DNA from: Tritonibacter mobilis
Lineage (GTDB): Bacteria > Pseudomonadota > Alphaproteobacteria > Rhodobacterales > Rhodobacteraceae
Reading direction: 5' to 3'
Length of the DNA stretch: 64,000 nucleotides
Assembly (NCBI RefSeq): GCF_001681715.1
Contig: NZ_LNWY01000001.1
Span: 62,001 to 126,000 of the forward strand
The first letter of the stretch is position 1. The number at the start of each line of letters is the position of its first letter. The notes beneath the pieces are model-generated. The model was not told the origin of the DNA. It worked only from the letters and a program-made list of their open reading frames with translations, and searched no databases. This document shows positions 48,947 to 57,366 of this stretch, piece after piece. Position numbers and translations under genes: made by a program.

Positions 48947-49462
48947 CTATGTCCAGCCCAGTTGTTTGCGAATTAGGTCCCGGGCGATGTTGATGGCCTT
49001 GGCGTGTGAAGGACTTCCCCCGAGATCGGGGTGCGCCTTGCGCATGGCCTTGCGGTAGGCTCGGGAGAGCTGTGCTTTGGTGAATCCTTCGACCGGCAGA
49101 CCGAGCAGTTTGCAGGCAGGTACCCAGCCATTGATGCGCACAATTGTGGCATCTTCCCTGGCTTCTTCGCGGCCGAGGCGCTGCCATTCGGGTTCGGCTC
49201 TGAATGCCGACAGACCGCGCGCCTTTCGGGCTTTCTGTGCCGCGATGGCTGCGCTGCATCTGTCGCTGATCAGGTTGATCACGCGAGCCGGGATGGACGG
49301 CAGCACTTCCAGCAGAACGATTTCTGCCGAGATCAGCACCAGCATGAACGCGAAGCAGATCAGCCGCGTGACCAGCACGAAGGTGATGGCCACAAGGCCG
49401 CCAATCACGCCGAGTGCGACTGCGCCCCCGAAATACGTCAGATACACATCACCCGCCGTCAT
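48947..49462 (-). CDS. J-domain membrane protein of the mobilisation region
   Basis: The 171-residue protein has two hydrophobic segments near the N-terminus (about 7-62, GGAVALGVIGGLVAITFVLV and FAFMLVLISAEIVLLEVLPS) and a C-terminal J-like region with HPD at 144-146 (MRKAHPDLGG). J domains stimulate Hsp70 ATPase. It overlaps traG by 4 nt, so it is co-expressed with the coupling protein. A role in DNA transfer is inferred only from context. Confidence 0.82.
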   Translation of the reverse strand: MTAGDVYLTYFGGAVALGVIGGLVAITFVLVTRLICFAFMLVLISAEIVLLEVLPSIPARVINLISDRCSAAIAAQKARKARGLSAFRAEPEWQRLGREEAREDATIVRINGWVPACKLLGLPVEGFTKAQLSRAYRKAMRKAHPDLGGSPSHAKAINIARDLIRKQLGWT

Positions 49463-51078
49463 GACAGAACTCCGATCAGTTTGTGAATCGCAACGCCAAG
49501 CAGGCCGAGATACAGGAAAGCTGCCGCCGGATGCGGCGCCAGCAGACAGACCAGCAGGTGATAGAGATCACCCCACAATCCCTTCAGGCCTGCGCCGAGG
49601 GTGACAGGCGGCTTGCGCGACTGATACGGGTTGCGGTTAAACTGGCCTCGTAGTTCAGGGCGCTCCCAGTAAGGCGTTTTCTTTAGCGGCTGGGCTTCGA
49701 GGTTGCGGATGAACACGAGCTGACGTGTTGCATCAAAATGCAGAATCTCGTCCACCGTTAGCAGGGCGCGGCGCGTCTCAGACGAGCTGGCCTGGCCCTG
49801 CGCATTGGTCGAGCGGCTATGGGTTGTCTGCTCGCCCAGGAGCTTGCTGACATACTCGGCCGTCTCCAAGTCGCTGACGCCAATGAACTGCCGCAGCCCG
49901 CAATTTGCGATGAAGGTCTGCCACTGCTCGCCATAGAGCGCTTTGACCTGACCGATATTCTGGAAGATCGGCCACAGCACGACCTTGTACTTGCGCAACG
50001 TGGCAAGCCAGTTTGGAAATCGCGTTATTTTGCCAAGTGCTGCAGCCTCGTCGATCAGGAATAGCACCTTCGCGCGGGCAAGCGGGGCGCGCTGCATCTC
50101 CCAGATCGCGCAGCCGAGCGCGAGACGCGGGATGGCCGCATGGCTTTCGTTATACTCAAGCGGCAGGACAACAGAGATGACACCGCCCTTAAGCGCCTTG
50201 CCGGATTTTTTGCGTCCTTTCAGGATCGAGAAATCAACATCACTGCGCTTTAGGCTCTCGCGCACAACTTTATCGCCGAGCCAGACCAGGTCCTGCTGGA
50301 CTGTGGACATCACCGCCGAGAATTCCGCCGGGGCTTGTTCTTCGCGGCGCTCCATCGAGGAAGCGGTCTTTGAGACGAACCCGTCGCCAGCAGTATTGGC
50401 GACCATCGCTTTGATCAGCGTCTCCCACTCATCAGCATCACCGTTGACCAGCGCATAGACCGTGCCGAGGTGGCGCGCACTTTTCGGCAGGGTGCTGATG
50501 ACGTGCATCAGCACCGCCTGCAGGAAGCTGGTTGCTGCGTTCTTGAAATAGAGTGAGCTGCCATCTTCCTTGCCCGAACGCGGGATTAGAAGCTCTGCGA
50601 TCAGCAGCGCTTCGGAGGCGAATGTCTCGCTATCGGCATCGAGGATGTCGAGCGGGTTGAAGCCGTGTCGCGGCAGCGCCCATGGCTTGTTTTCGAACAT
50701 CCCGAACGGGTTGATGACACAGACTTCATAGCCCGCTTTGCGCCAGGATTTGATCGCCACAGCCGTGTTTTCACCGCCAGGGTCGATGGCAAAGGCAAAG
50801 CCAGGGAGCATCAGGTTCGGCAGGATTGTACACGTACCCTTGCCGCTGCCCGAAGGCCCAAAAGAGATGGCATGGGTGTCTTCGTAGTAGACTGGAAGAA
50901 GGCCCGTCCAGTCGCCGACTAGAATGCCTTTGCGCTTGAACAGTCTCGCGCGCATGGCAGTCCACGGCTTAAGCCAGCCTGCGCTGCCATAGGTCTTGGG
51001 GTCTTGCTTGAAGCGCCAGCCTAGAAGGCCGAGACCAAGGACGCCAGCGGCGGCGTATGAGATGATGCTACCAGACAT
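49459..51078 (-). CDS. traG: TraG/VirD4-type coupling protein
   Basis: The 539-residue ATPase has a membrane segment at about 7-20, Walker A GPSGSGKG (74-81) and Walker B VLFLIDEAAAL, with a further hydrophobic C-terminal region. Type IV coupling proteins deliver the relaxase-DNA complex to a conjugation channel. No type IV secretion genes are visible in the window, so the element may be mobilisable or have them further right. It is divergent from the gene at 51174 across a 12-bp palindrome. Confidence 0.92.
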   Translation of the reverse strand: MSGSIISYAAAGVLGLGLLGWRFKQDPKTYGSAGWLKPWTAMRARLFKRKGILVGDWTGLLPVYYEDTHAISFGPSGSGKGTCTILPNLMLPGFAFAIDPGGENTAVAIKSWRKAGYEVCVINPFGMFENKPWALPRHGFNPLDILDADSETFASEALLIAELLIPRSGKEDGSSLYFKNAATSFLQAVLMHVISTLPKSARHLGTVYALVNGDADEWETLIKAMVANTAGDGFVSKTASSMERREEQAPAEFSAVMSTVQQDLVWLGDKVVRESLKRSDVDFSILKGRKKSGKALKGGVISVVLPLEYNESHAAIPRLALGCAIWEMQRAPLARAKVLFLIDEAAALGKITRFPNWLATLRKYKVVLWPIFQNIGQVKALYGEQWQTFIANCGLRQFIGVSDLETAEYVSKLLGEQTTHSRSTNAQGQASSSETRRALLTVDEILHFDATRQLVFIRNLEAQPLKKTPYWERPELRGQFNRNPYQSRKPPVTLGAGLKGLWGDLYHLLVCLLAPHPAAAFLYLGLLGVAIHKLIGVLS

Positions 51079-54421: not shown

Positions 54422-54717
54422 GCAGCACCTACCAAACATTCCGTATCGAATGGCAGGGTATCAGCATCGAAGTCCGTTGGGCGGCGCGGTGGACAAGTTC
54501 CACCGCGTACCCCATCGCGCATCTGGAACTGGTTTCTGACGGGCGGGCAAAGTTGCCCGTCACCGAGACAGGCTACCGCTCCCATTTTACCAATCGCGAG
54601 ACTGTGGAAGCCCACGGGGGTCCCGTGGCGTTTGCCATCGCCTGGCTCGATCACGAAGCGCAGAGTGATGCGTGGAAGCGCCACGTCCAACAGAGCAAAC
54701 AGCTCACGCTCTTCTAG
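54418..54717 (+). CDS. Hypothetical protein, last gene of the DUF2958 operon
   Basis: The 99-residue protein (FRIEWQGISIEVRWAARW and HLELVSDGRAKLPVTETGYRSHF) is coupled to the preceding gene by an ATGA overlap. It has a mixed alpha/beta pattern. Proteins like it are common in plasmid operons with DUF2958; no function is known. Confidence 0.75.
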   Translation: MSSTYQTFRIEWQGISIEVRWAARWTSSTAYPIAHLELVSDGRAKLPVTETGYRSHFTNRETVEAHGGPVAFAIAWLDHEAQSDAWKRHVQQSKQLTLF

Positions 54718-54735
54718 CTACGCAATTTTTGCCGA

Positions 54736-54766
54736 AGCCCTCTGCCAAGACCGGCGGAGGGCTCTT
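54736..54766 (+). terminator. Terminator of the DUF2958 operon
   Basis: AGCCCTC (54736-54742) and GAGGGCT (54757-54763) form the outer stem, with GCC/GGC pairing inside. The tract CTTGC follows, so termination may be imperfect. Confidence 0.6.
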
Positions 54767-55036
54767 GCACGTTCCGACTTGCCTGATCGGCAAGGATCGG
54801 CGCGGGGTCCGTGCTGGTGCACGTCTGTCCGCACCGATCCGATTCAGCCCGTGGTACAGGCGTTCAATTGGCGGCGTAAAGCGCGTGTCCAACTCTTGTC
54901 CGCTCGCCAATTTCAGCGTAAAAATGAATGTATATCAACGGGATCGCTTGCTCAGCGCTGGTTTGCGGGCAGGTTTTAAGAAATCCCTAATCTTGTTCCG
55001 ATATCATTAGCTGAATAGGTCGTTTTCAGAGCGATA

Positions 55037-55404
55037 CAAGATGTGCGCGGTGACACCGCGCCATCTTGGGAAGGGGGCTAAAGAGCCGCCCCCGTTCCAT
55101 CCCCCGCTCGTGTGGTGAGACCGAAAGAGAGACGAATCGTCCCCCTTGTTCATACCACAGCAGCATTTCGTTGCTGCACCACGACCGAAGAGCCTTCGTG
55201 CCCTTTGGAAACCTGAGCAGGAGACTTCGCTCTCCTGCACCATCGACCGGACCTTGGGAGATATGCTTCTCCCATCCGGACTGAACCCATGCACCAGGGA
55301 AATTCGCACCCTGGACGGCGACCAAAAGGGAGACTTCGGCTCTCCTCTTGGAACTCCATCGACCAACATTTCGGTGTTGGATCACGAGCAGGAAACGGTC
55401 CTGC
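55037..55404 (+). ncRNA. Tandem stem-loop array upstream of mobC (candidate structured RNA or oriT)
   Basis: Ten hairpins follow each other within 368 bp. The first is CAAGATG-T-GCGCGGT paired with ACCGCGC-CATCTTG (55037-55068), then GGGGGC/GCCCCC (55073-55093). Eight smaller ones follow at 55160-55177, 55186-55198, 55217-55238, 55255-55274, 55294-55314, 55327-55348, 55363-55380 and 55388-55404, with stems of 5-8 bp, several loops containing TTCG, and spacers such as CATCGACC used twice. The rest of the gap (54767-55036) shows no gene. Confidence 0.6.
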
Positions 55405-55441
55405 ACCCGGTGGCCTACGAGAGGTGAAACGGGAATACGCT

Positions 55442-55795
55442 ATGGCTGGCAGCGGCAGCAACAAAAGAGAGCGCCAGATCATTCTCAAGGCGCGCTTTAA
55501 CGAGCAGGAAGCCTCGCTCGTTAAGCAGCAAGCCGATGCTGCCGGTCTGTCTGTGTCTGCGGTGATCCGTTTTGCTCTTCTCGACCAAGCGCCCCTTCGC
55601 GCATCGCGCACACCACCCCTTGATCGCGAACTTGCCGCACGTTTGCTGGCTGCTCTTGGGTCGATCGCGTGCTCCATGAGGCAGGCTGCCGATGCGGGCG
55701 ATATCGATCATCTTTCCGAGACGGTCATCGCCGCGCAGCGCGATCTCGCAGAACTCCGCACCGTTGTCATGTCTGCCTTAGGGAGGAAACCATGA
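55442..55795 (+). CDS. mobC: MobC-like relaxosome accessory protein
   Basis: The 117-residue protein has a ribbon-helix-helix-like N-terminus (RQIILKARFNEQEASLVKQQADAAGLSVSAVIRFALL) followed by a helical part (LAALGSIACSMRQAADAGDIDHLSETVIAAQRDLAEL), as in MobC/MobB proteins that bind oriT beside the relaxase. Its stop overlaps the relaxase start. The first ATG after the stem-loop array is chosen. Confidence 0.85.
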   Translation: MAGSGSNKRERQIILKARFNEQEASLVKQQADAAGLSVSAVIRFALLDQAPLRASRTPPLDRELAARLLAALGSIACSMRQAADAGDIDHLSETVIAAQRDLAELRTVVMSALGRKP

Positions 55796-57366
55796 TCCTC
55801 AAAGGCAGCTGCCGGACGAACGGTTCCGATCTCGCGACCCATCTCATGAATGGCTACGACAACGAGCGTGCCGAGCTCTGCGAAGTGCGCGGCACTATCG
55901 CCGATGATCTGCACGGCGCCTTTGCGGAAGTAGAGATGATCGCATCGGGGACGCGCGCGCAAAAGCCACTCTTCTCCCTGTCCATCAACCCCCATGAGGC
56001 GCTGACGCGCGAGCAGTATTTCGAGGCGATTGACGCCATCGAATCCAGACTGGGGTTTGCAGGACAGCCGCGTGCCGTTGTCTTCCACGAGAAGGAAGGC
56101 CGCGAGCATTGCCATGTCGTCTGGTCGCGCATCGATGCGGAGTCGATGAAGGCGATCCCGGACTCGTTCTACAAGGCGCGGCTCTGCGACATGGCGGTCG
56201 TTCTTGCCGAGAAATTCGGGCACGAGTTGCCGGAAGGGCTCAAGCAGTGGCGCGATAAGAACCGCGAGCTTGGTGACAAGCTTGAGCCTAGCCTTGCTGA
56301 AACCGCGGGCGCCAAGAAGACGGGCGTCAGCCCTGAGCAGCGGCGTGAAGACATCACAGCTGCTTACGTGCAGGCCGATAGTGCCGCCGCATTTGTAAAC
56401 GCGCTCGAAGAGAAGGGCTATGTGCTTGCCAAGGGTGATAGCCGCGCTTTTGTTATCGTCGATGAGTTCGGCGATGTGCACAGCTTGACGCGCTACGTCA
56501 AAGGCGTGCGCGCCAAGGAAATAAAGGCTCGGCTCGCCGATCTCGATATGGCGTCACTGCCAAATGTTGCGCAGGCGCAGGAGCAAGCCAAAGCCCGGCT
56601 TGCAGCCCAGGAAGACCGGCTGCGTGAACAACAGGACCTGCAGCATGATCGTTGGCATGATGATGAGCGTTTTAAGCGCAGCATCGATCAGAAACGCACC
56701 GCCATGGAAGCGCGGCAGCGCGAGCGAAGGCTGGAATTTGTGCAGGCCGAACAGCAGGTGCTGACGCGCCATCAAGATGAAAAGCTCGCGCTCGATGCAG
56801 CACAAAAATCCGAGAGCGGGGGGCTCTTGTTCCGCATGCGCGCCCGGGTGGCCGATCTGATTTCAGAGCGTCCGGCGCTGCGTTCCGTGCTCAGTCACAT
56901 AACCGAAAAAGCCGGGCTTGATCCGCGTGATCGTCATCGCCTGGAGCAGCACGCCCTTGCGCGTCGTCATGAGCGCGAACGTGTTGCTCTGGCTGGTCGC
57001 AAGCGGTCGATCGAGAAGATCGAAAAACGCGAGCTCGCTTCGCTTGAGCGTGATCTCAAGCAGGAAATGCTGCAGCGGATGGTGCGGCAGGAGCAGCTGC
57101 GTGCTGCAGCAAAGGCGAGAGGTTTGGATGCCGCTGAAGCAGTAGACTTCATGCGCACCGACCCGCGTCTTCTTGAAGAACGCGCCTTCCAGGATGAATT
57201 TAATCACGAGGCGGCCGGTGATCATCACTACGACGATGATGATCGTGGCGGTGATGATGATGACGACGGTCAAAAGAAGAAGCGGAACTGGAAGCAGCGC
57301 GCGAAAGACAAAGGCCTAAAGCAAGGGCGCGAGCGTGGCGGGTATGGGTACCGGCGCGGGGATTGA
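55792..57366 (+). CDS. mobA: Relaxase (mobilisation nuclease, MOBP-like)
   Basis: The 524-residue protein has a relaxase domain at about 1-250 with the metal-binding histidines H99, H106 and H108 in VFHEKEGREHCHVVWSRID. A long charged, coiled-coil-like middle (about 280-470) is followed by an acidic DDDDRGGDDDDDG tract and a basic tail. Relaxases nick oriT and pilot the strand in conjugation. GGAGG lies 5 nt before the ATG at 55792, which overlaps the mobC stop. Confidence 0.9.
   Translation: MILKGSCRTNGSDLATHLMNGYDNERAELCEVRGTIADDLHGAFAEVEMIASGTRAQKPLFSLSINPHEALTREQYFEAIDAIESRLGFAGQPRAVVFHEKEGREHCHVVWSRIDAESMKAIPDSFYKARLCDMAVVLAEKFGHELPEGLKQWRDKNRELGDKLEPSLAETAGAKKTGVSPEQRREDITAAYVQADSAAAFVNALEEKGYVLAKGDSRAFVIVDEFGDVHSLTRYVKGVRAKEIKARLADLDMASLPNVAQAQEQAKARLAAQEDRLREQQDLQHDRWHDDERFKRSIDQKRTAMEARQRERRLEFVQAEQQVLTRHQDEKLALDAAQKSESGGLLFRMRARVADLISERPALRSVLSHITEKAGLDPRDRHRLEQHALARRHERERVALAGRKRSIEKIEKRELASLERDLKQEMLQRMVRQEQLRAAAKARGLDAAEAVDFMRTDPRLLEERAFQDEFNHEAAGDHHYDDDDRGGDDDDDGQKKKRNWKQRAKDKGLKQGRERGGYGYRRGD

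Follow-up and report, generated by a model that had tools for sequence, protein, structure and literature searches.

A conserved two-hairpin leader with a variable hairpin array, probably an origin of transfer, beside the mobilization genes of Tritonibacter mobilis

What is the role of the row of stem-loops standing directly before mobC and a relaxase gene in Tritonibacter mobilis? The row occupies positions 55037-55404 of the window, i.e., the whole stretch of DNA analyzed, 64,000 nucleotides of contig NZ_LNWY01000001.1 (positions 62,001 to 126,000), and is accompanied by the following transfer genes:

49459..51078, minus strand: coupling protein (T4SS-DNA_transf, TraG-D_C), of the kind usually found to the left
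55442..55795, plus strand: mobC, NikA-like (PF21983)
55792..57366, plus strand: relaxase, MobA/VirD2-like (PF03432)

The hairpin row is real and conserved. With RNA parameters, 55030-55440 folds at -173.9 kcal/mol versus -137.6 +/- 5.8 kcal/mol in shuffled sequences (z -6.24), and with DNA parameters z amounts to -6.10; none of 100 shuffles was as good in either case. The comparison with shuffled controls proposed in the first-pass annotation of this DNA, which had reported about ten stem-loops, therefore bears out the structure, with z values of about -6 for both sets of parameters. The row of stem-loops was seen correctly, whereas their number has to be corrected: the consensus structure of seven sequences contains eleven local stem-loops, of which hairpin 3 is long and imperfect, a further 3-bp stem-loop being left uncounted. 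These stem-loops fall into two parts, a two-hairpin leader (55036-55105) and a variable hairpin array on one side of it, and are listed here with the tract that ends the leader (no strand is assigned to any of them):

55037..55068: hairpin 1, leader; outer stem CAAGATG/CATCTTG, inner stem GCGCGGT/ACCGCGC; CAAG present in 109 of 111 leaders
55069..55098: hairpin 2, leader; GGAA-GGGGGC/GCCCCC-G-TTCC
55099..55105: pyrimidine tract ATCCCCC 3' of hairpin 2, whose 3' arm it repeats in mirror form
55111..55159: array hairpin 3, long and imperfect, with both-side changes in three pairs (seven close relatives)
55160..55177: array hairpin 4; GCAGCA-TTTCGT-TGCTGC
55185..55208: array hairpin 5, from the consensus structure of seven sequences
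55217..55238: array hairpin 6; GCAGGAGA-CTTCGC-TCTCCTGC
55247..55279: array hairpin 7, with a two-part stem, from the consensus structure of seven sequences
55294..55314: array hairpin 8; CCAGGG/CCCTGG
55328..55346: array hairpin 9, which has GGAGACTTCG in common with hairpin 6
55361..55383: array hairpin 10; CCAACA-TTTCGG-TGTTGG
55388..55404: array hairpin 11; GCAGGA-AACGG-TCCTGC

The strings previously said to recur in hairpins and spacers were all found, each of them twice: GGAGACTTCG at 55220 and 55329, GCTCTCCT at 55229 and 55339, and CCATCGACC at 55240 and 55356. Translation of the region is unlikely, in agreement with the earlier remark that it holds no convincing gene. The frame at 55146-55427 gave no Pfam match, and although it is open in L034 and L035, it is shifted by 1-nt indels in the other four of six close relatives (L036, L037, L038, and L039); the protein-coding reading was rejected on these two grounds. 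The loci nearest in sequence belong to Roseovarius, Lutimaribacter, Sedimentitalea, and other Rhodobacteraceae. The window shares 95-99% identity with the six close relatives in the leader and 89-99% in the array, as compared with 81-89% in the first 900 nt of the relaxase gene; in mobC, the identity is 76-79% in five of them and 99% in L034, where that of the array is also 99%. The stretch at 55037-55404 is therefore better conserved than the adjoining mobC in five of the six relatives. Variable columns were rarer in stems (18/158) than at unpaired positions (30/148; Fisher p 0.04, the structure being drawn from the same alignment), a pattern that likewise speaks against coding.

The same 5' leader was identified by DNA search and profiles in other Rhodobacteraceae and in Bradyrhizobium and Sphingopyxis. 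A covariance model of the leader (R1) gave a match in 52 of 394 Rhodobacteraceae genomes and in 22 of 385 genomes of Alphaproteobacteria, and a second model (R2) detected it in 6 of 279 genomes of the phylum, three of these lying outside the class; each tally counts the window's own genome and, given the strict filters, may be low. The leader search yielded 89 matches, all of which were used for alignment A3, model R2, and the leader covariation test; the context and array tests were based on 86 of them (three weak matches on the opposite strand were omitted), and the array tests needing full length on 85 loci. With R2, plasmids of Acidithiobacillus, Nitrosospira, Xanthomonas, and Desulfosarcina (a genus outside the phylum) were also found to carry the leader upstream of mobC; the distance is only 30-75 nt (pTF4.1, Nitrosospira, Xanthomonas hortorum, and Desulfosarcina), while in Frigidibacter and Sinorhizobium the leader lies about 450-550 nt upstream of mobC. 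In the relaxase-bearing plasmid records (18 in all), 9 of the 11 regions examined carry the leader, the exceptions being the plasmid regions of Sphingobium (L256) and Peteryoungia (L260).

No family corresponding to the element was found in Rfam at either gathering or permissive thresholds (the best weak match scored 20.5 bits versus a threshold of 50), the only matches being two tRNAs in the window and one tRNA in 17 relatives. The element of one relative (L072) had no match among phage records, and the Desulfosarcina leader had none in E. coli genomes. In IMG/VR, 45 contigs show the pattern CCCGTTGCATCCCYC and six of these carry the leader; since a serine recombinase is present on three of the six and a coupling protein on one, these contigs might represent integrative elements instead of viruses.

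Compensatory base changes, for which the first-pass annotation had proposed a test, are present in these homologues. In 85 distinct rows of the leader, 97.2% of 1886 cells are paired, versus 31-51% when the structure was slid along the alignment, and both-side changes occur in 18 of 23 pairs (8 of the 13 modelled pairs of hairpin 1 and all 10 of hairpin 2), giving 242 cells versus 55.7 in shuffles (0/500). In 22 further leaders, 96.3% of the cells are paired and 77 show both-side changes (19.3 when shuffled). The corresponding values for the first two array hairpins in 28 motif-picked loci are 89.7% and 60 versus 20.4, counts that are favored by the choice of loci, since this alignment (A7) comprises 28 of the 31 loci with the CATTGA motif, window excluded, and L079, L080, and L177, in which a later hairpin is different or absent, were omitted before counting. 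Since alignments A3 and A5 were produced by fitting to the model, they lean towards it, but the effect size and the slid control argue against model fitting as the cause of the covariation.

The tract 3' of hairpin 2 varies along with the arm that it mirrors: where the arm reads CTCCC, the mirror position is T in 19 of 20 leaders, and where it reads CCCCC, in 4 of 70 (101 of the 111 leaders were parsed, and the relatedness among them is uncorrected). This pattern makes the mirror tract at 55099-55105 a candidate for triplex or H-DNA.

The array is not universal among the leader loci. The 430 nt 3' of the leader contain on average 4.4 hairpins in 85 loci, versus 1.46 after shuffling and 1.48 in a later 430-nt stretch, and in 71 of 107 loci the 300 nt 3' of the leader fold with z < -2 whichever strand is taken, versus 4 of 85 control stretches. 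On the plus strand, the median z was -4.7 where a relaxase is adjacent (17 loci), -2.6 in another 68 loci, and -2.4 in seven non-alphaproteobacterial loci. Closely spaced perfect hairpins were also counted strictly, alongside the folding z-scores because long imperfect hairpins interrupt the chain: the window scores 3, the median is 2 in the 17 adjacent-relaxase loci (shuffled mean 0.33) and 0 in 69 other loci (shuffled mean 0.13), and the seven non-alphaproteobacterial loci score 0 or 1. Since the strict counts and the folding z-scores both differ among loci, an array as dense as that of the window is a feature of part of the family.

The leader tracks one relaxase family. At cut-offs of E 1e-20 for the relaxase and E 1e-3 for the leader, 45 of the 394 genomes carry both, 7 the leader only, 24 the relaxase only, and 318 neither (Fisher p 5e-34); no leader match was obtained in 24 of the 69 genomes with the relaxase. 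A relaxase is present on the same contig within 32 kb of 49 of 67 leaders, and on the array side in 47 of these 49. Two layouts were observed: the relaxase gene is located either 0.46-1.04 kb from the leader (nine cases, eight on the same strand and one on the opposite strand) or at a distance of 2.7-30 kb and on the opposite strand (38 of 49). Only one of the 24 relaxase loci L005-L028 (1.5 kb flanks, some shorter) has a leader alongside, so that a distant leader is not replaced by a second one near the relaxase. Protein profiles, constructed from members of the loci themselves, detected a coupling protein in 52 of the 86 leader contexts and a relaxase in 34. Coupling-protein ORFs are on the left and on the minus strand in 45 of 54 cases, as are serine recombinases in 36 of 37. 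To the right of the leader, the first identified genes are on the plus strand in L070, L072, L075, and L078 and on the minus strand in L071 and L074, and ORFs of at least 250 aa number 39 on the plus and 29 on the minus strand (mechanical calls, spurious ORFs included). Where no relaxase is adjacent, restriction-modification and other defence-like genes are found there in either orientation (L070-L075 and L078).

In L070, L071, L072, and L075, the side to the right of the leader carries different restriction-modification genes (MmeI-like, Eco57I-like, type I, and C5 methylase), as in a cargo hot spot. Two loci carry two leaders, 1.5 kb apart and in opposite orientation in L187 (9252-9318 and 10789-10855) and 7.5 kb apart in the same orientation in L185 (9911-9975 and 17395-17460), which suggests the presence of neighboring or nested elements. 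MOBP relaxases have a tyrosine at motif I. At this position, most relaxases of the present family have a histidine (A.HLM), and those of L076, L152, L248, L259, and L266 a tyrosine; the histidine might serve as the nucleophile, as in MobM.

Every mobilizable element requires an oriT. The leader is a conserved non-coding piece lying between the coupling protein and the relaxase side, and in the plasmids it stands at the position expected of an oriT. For these reasons, we consider it probable (about 0.6) that the leader at 55036-55105 is the oriT of a MOBP-type mobilizable element and that the array is an enlarged oriT-side structure that acts during the single-stranded state of the transferred DNA. 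Two features by which an oriT can be recognized are present: the link to a cognate relaxase gene, in the 394 genomes and through the adjoining mobC in the plasmids, and an inverted repeat forming a hairpin beside the putative nick, in the form of the covarying hairpins 1 and 2. The nick would lie at the base of hairpin 1:

55036..55037, minus strand: candidate nic, 5'-CATCTTG/T (the slash marks the nick)

On the minus strand, the base of hairpin 1 reads CTTG, mostly CATCTTG, and the next base is a pyrimidine in 107 of 111 leaders; on the plus strand, CAAGAT occurs in 73 of 111 leaders and other CAAG forms in 36. The MOBP nick consensus is (C/T)ATCCTG(C/T) (PMC3772185), from which the minus-strand CATCTTG(C/T) differs by one mismatch in the core, the motif being located within a hairpin arm. 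From this closeness we infer that nicking occurs here and that the mob genes of the window enter the recipient last. The relaxase would then recognize hairpin 1 and cut the base of this hairpin, probably on the minus strand (CATCTTG/Y). With such a nick, the array would belong to the trailing part of the strand in transfer, as a platform for the relaxosome or for coupling. After unwinding or transfer of that strand, the nine hairpins of the array would fold as single-stranded DNA and might form a loading platform beside the nick for the coupling protein, an accessory protein of the relaxosome, or proteins of strand synthesis. The idea of a multi-site relaxosome platform put forward in the first-pass annotation comes close to this reading, and its views that the region is tied to mobilization and holds more structure than a minimal oriT needs both stand.

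A broader proposal, which we regard as doubtful, is that the leader and array constitute a class of transfer DNA or RNA that is modular and conserved in structure, in which a core with a mirror-repeat (triplex-like) clamp precedes interchangeable hairpins. Carried on alphaproteobacterial mobile elements between transfer genes and defence-like cargo, it would be needed for processing or establishing the transferred strand.

If the plus strand were transferred instead of the minus strand, the array would be a leading region, and a single-strand promoter or origin would become likelier: the array would enter the recipient first, and its hairpins would prime complementary-strand synthesis or early transcription, like Frpo or an sso. 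The array does adjoin the putative oriT, and the restriction-modification and ArdC genes on its side fit this arrangement, since such genes occur in leading regions (PMC11541004); the leading-region-like position of ArdC, found to the right in 17 of 20 loci, favors the other strand, and the tract at 55099-55105 is another nick candidate, one that would place the array in the leading region. However, this explanation requires a plus-strand nick, whose candidate ATCCC is unconserved in pTF4.1, in Sinorhizobium, and in the Xanthomonas plasmid, and the genes identified to the right of the leader stand in mixed orientation; we rate it as unlikely.

Wobble pairs also bear on whether the structure acts as DNA or as RNA, since selection for an RNA from one strand should leave wobble on that strand. 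In the covarying stems, G.U and A.C cells amount to 9 and 14 of 1886, 3 and 3 of 490, and 7 and 9 of 418, i.e., 19 and 26 of 2794 in total, as compared with 90 G.U in the 1228 pairs of 58 tRNAs from the collected loci (the program marks standard pairs only). G.U is thus not commoner than A.C, as would be the case in a structured RNA of the plus strand, and the virtual lack of wobble in the leader and early array argues against such an RNA. In the array stems as a whole, A.C outnumbers G.T by 60 to 28 in unique hairpins and by 37 to 9 in stems of at least 8 bp, versus 21 to 19 in a flank control, and by locus A.C exceeds G.T in 35 cases and the reverse holds in 10, with 40 ties; these counts are not independent, the array hairpins being partly related. 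An excess of A.C over G.T on the plus strand is an excess of G.U on the minus strand, which hints that the structure, with its wobbles, belongs to the minus strand. In folding energy, neither strand is preferred (55 versus 52 of 107 loci), while a control stretch leaned towards the minus strand (47 versus 38, p 0.03), so that the wobble counts and the folding energy disagree.

The minus-strand hint is what one would expect of a large structured non-coding RNA, transcribed leftward from the minus strand and needed in trans for mobilization. There is a precedent in SGI1, the mobilization of which requires the sgm-sRNA encoded beside its oriT (PMC9299015), and the region is compact, conserved, and stable. 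Nevertheless, the leader and hairpins 3-4 are nearly devoid of wobble on either strand, and neither a strand preference in folding energy nor an Rfam match was found; a consensus scan of 54700-55800 gave no sigma-70-like promoter and one terminator-like site versus 1.2 in shuffled sequences, which is weak evidence in this group. The separate non-coding RNA envisaged in the first-pass annotation is therefore conceivable, but it is disfavored by the G.U and A.C counts of the covarying stems, and we rate it as quite unlikely.

Possible control elements were found upstream of the leader. The first resembles the CtrA consensus TTAA-N7-TTAAC (PMC4046655):

54976..54990, plus strand: CtrA-like box TTAA-N7-CTAA, 60 nt upstream of the leader

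Boxes of the form TTAA-N7-(T/C)TAA are located at -55 to -65 in 11 of the 85 leader loci (background 0.0028 per 118 nt), namely in the window, L034-L039, L079, L080, L189, and L196, seven of these being the window and its close relatives, and a relaxase is present within 1.1 kb in each. It is possible, on the strength of this motif, that CtrA controls mobilization. The second is a GTA(C/G)TAC-type palindrome found upstream of the leader in 15 of 85 loci (background near zero), which might be the operator of a dimeric protein. A palindrome GTANTAC is also present in the hairpin-1 stretch (in the loop) in 60 of 85 loci, and in 13 of these 60 a GTA(C/G)TAC-type palindrome occurs again upstream (e.g., L070-L075).

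The CtrA-like box in 11 of 85 loci and the position of mobC directly downstream in the window are compatible with a structured 5' untranslated region controlling the mobC-relaxase mRNA. This is very unlikely, since there is no excess of G.U and since, of the 49 leaders near a relaxase gene, 38 are separated from it by 2.7-30 kb, with the gene on the opposite strand. Because the genes to the right of the leader stand in either orientation, the element does not in general belong to an mRNA leader. These two observations on gene position rule out the leader RNA of mobC, another suggestion of the first-pass annotation, as a general role; in the window, a 5' untranslated function could be an added one. 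Lastly, that the hairpins are chance or repetitive structures without function, for which nothing but G+C richness speaks, is already refuted by the z of -6, the covariation, and the conservation above that of the adjoining gene in five of six relatives.

Should the leader be an oriT, its covariance model would find transfer origins in Alphaproteobacteria and beyond, including those of elements in which the oriT is far from the relaxase and which gene-based surveys could misplace. If the array acts in transfer, it would be a testable case of a DNA secondary structure serving conjugation and conserved above the adjoining mobilization gene.

No described counterpart of the element was found in the literature searched, the coverage of which was limited and left oriTDB outside. 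The Frpo of the F plasmid is a folded single-strand promoter region next to oriT; the window differs from it in having many short hairpins, and the likeness is one of description. GOLLD and ROOL RNAs are carried on mobile DNA. They resemble the present element in being large conserved structures (PMC12286853), whereas the window and 17 relatives have no Rfam match and a low G.U content. The sgm-sRNA of SGI1 is likewise a non-coding determinant beside the oriT of an integrative mobilizable element, but it has been shown to act in trans as RNA, and SGI1 has the tyrosine-recombinase-like MpsA and no relaxase (PMC9299015). In the IncU plasmid RA3, a 417-bp region comprising oriT and the mobC promoter lies upstream of mobC-nic and contains a number of inverted and direct repeats, not all of which have a known role; it has about seven named repeats, two of them with arms 26 and 75 nt apart, and no row of short hairpins (PMC4175270). 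In the MOBP oriTs of RP4 and of tfs4 of H. pylori, as in the leader, an ATC(C/T)TG-like motif has an inverted repeat next to it, and mob genes with a cognate MobA/VirD2-like relaxase follow downstream (PMC3772185). In the window, the nic-like motif is located in a hairpin arm and reads ATCTTG instead of ATCCTG, and a second hairpin with a mirror tract and nine more hairpins are added. As compared with these systems, the element would be an oriT whose conserved leader is unusual and which, in some members of the family, is accompanied by an enlarged array of hairpins.
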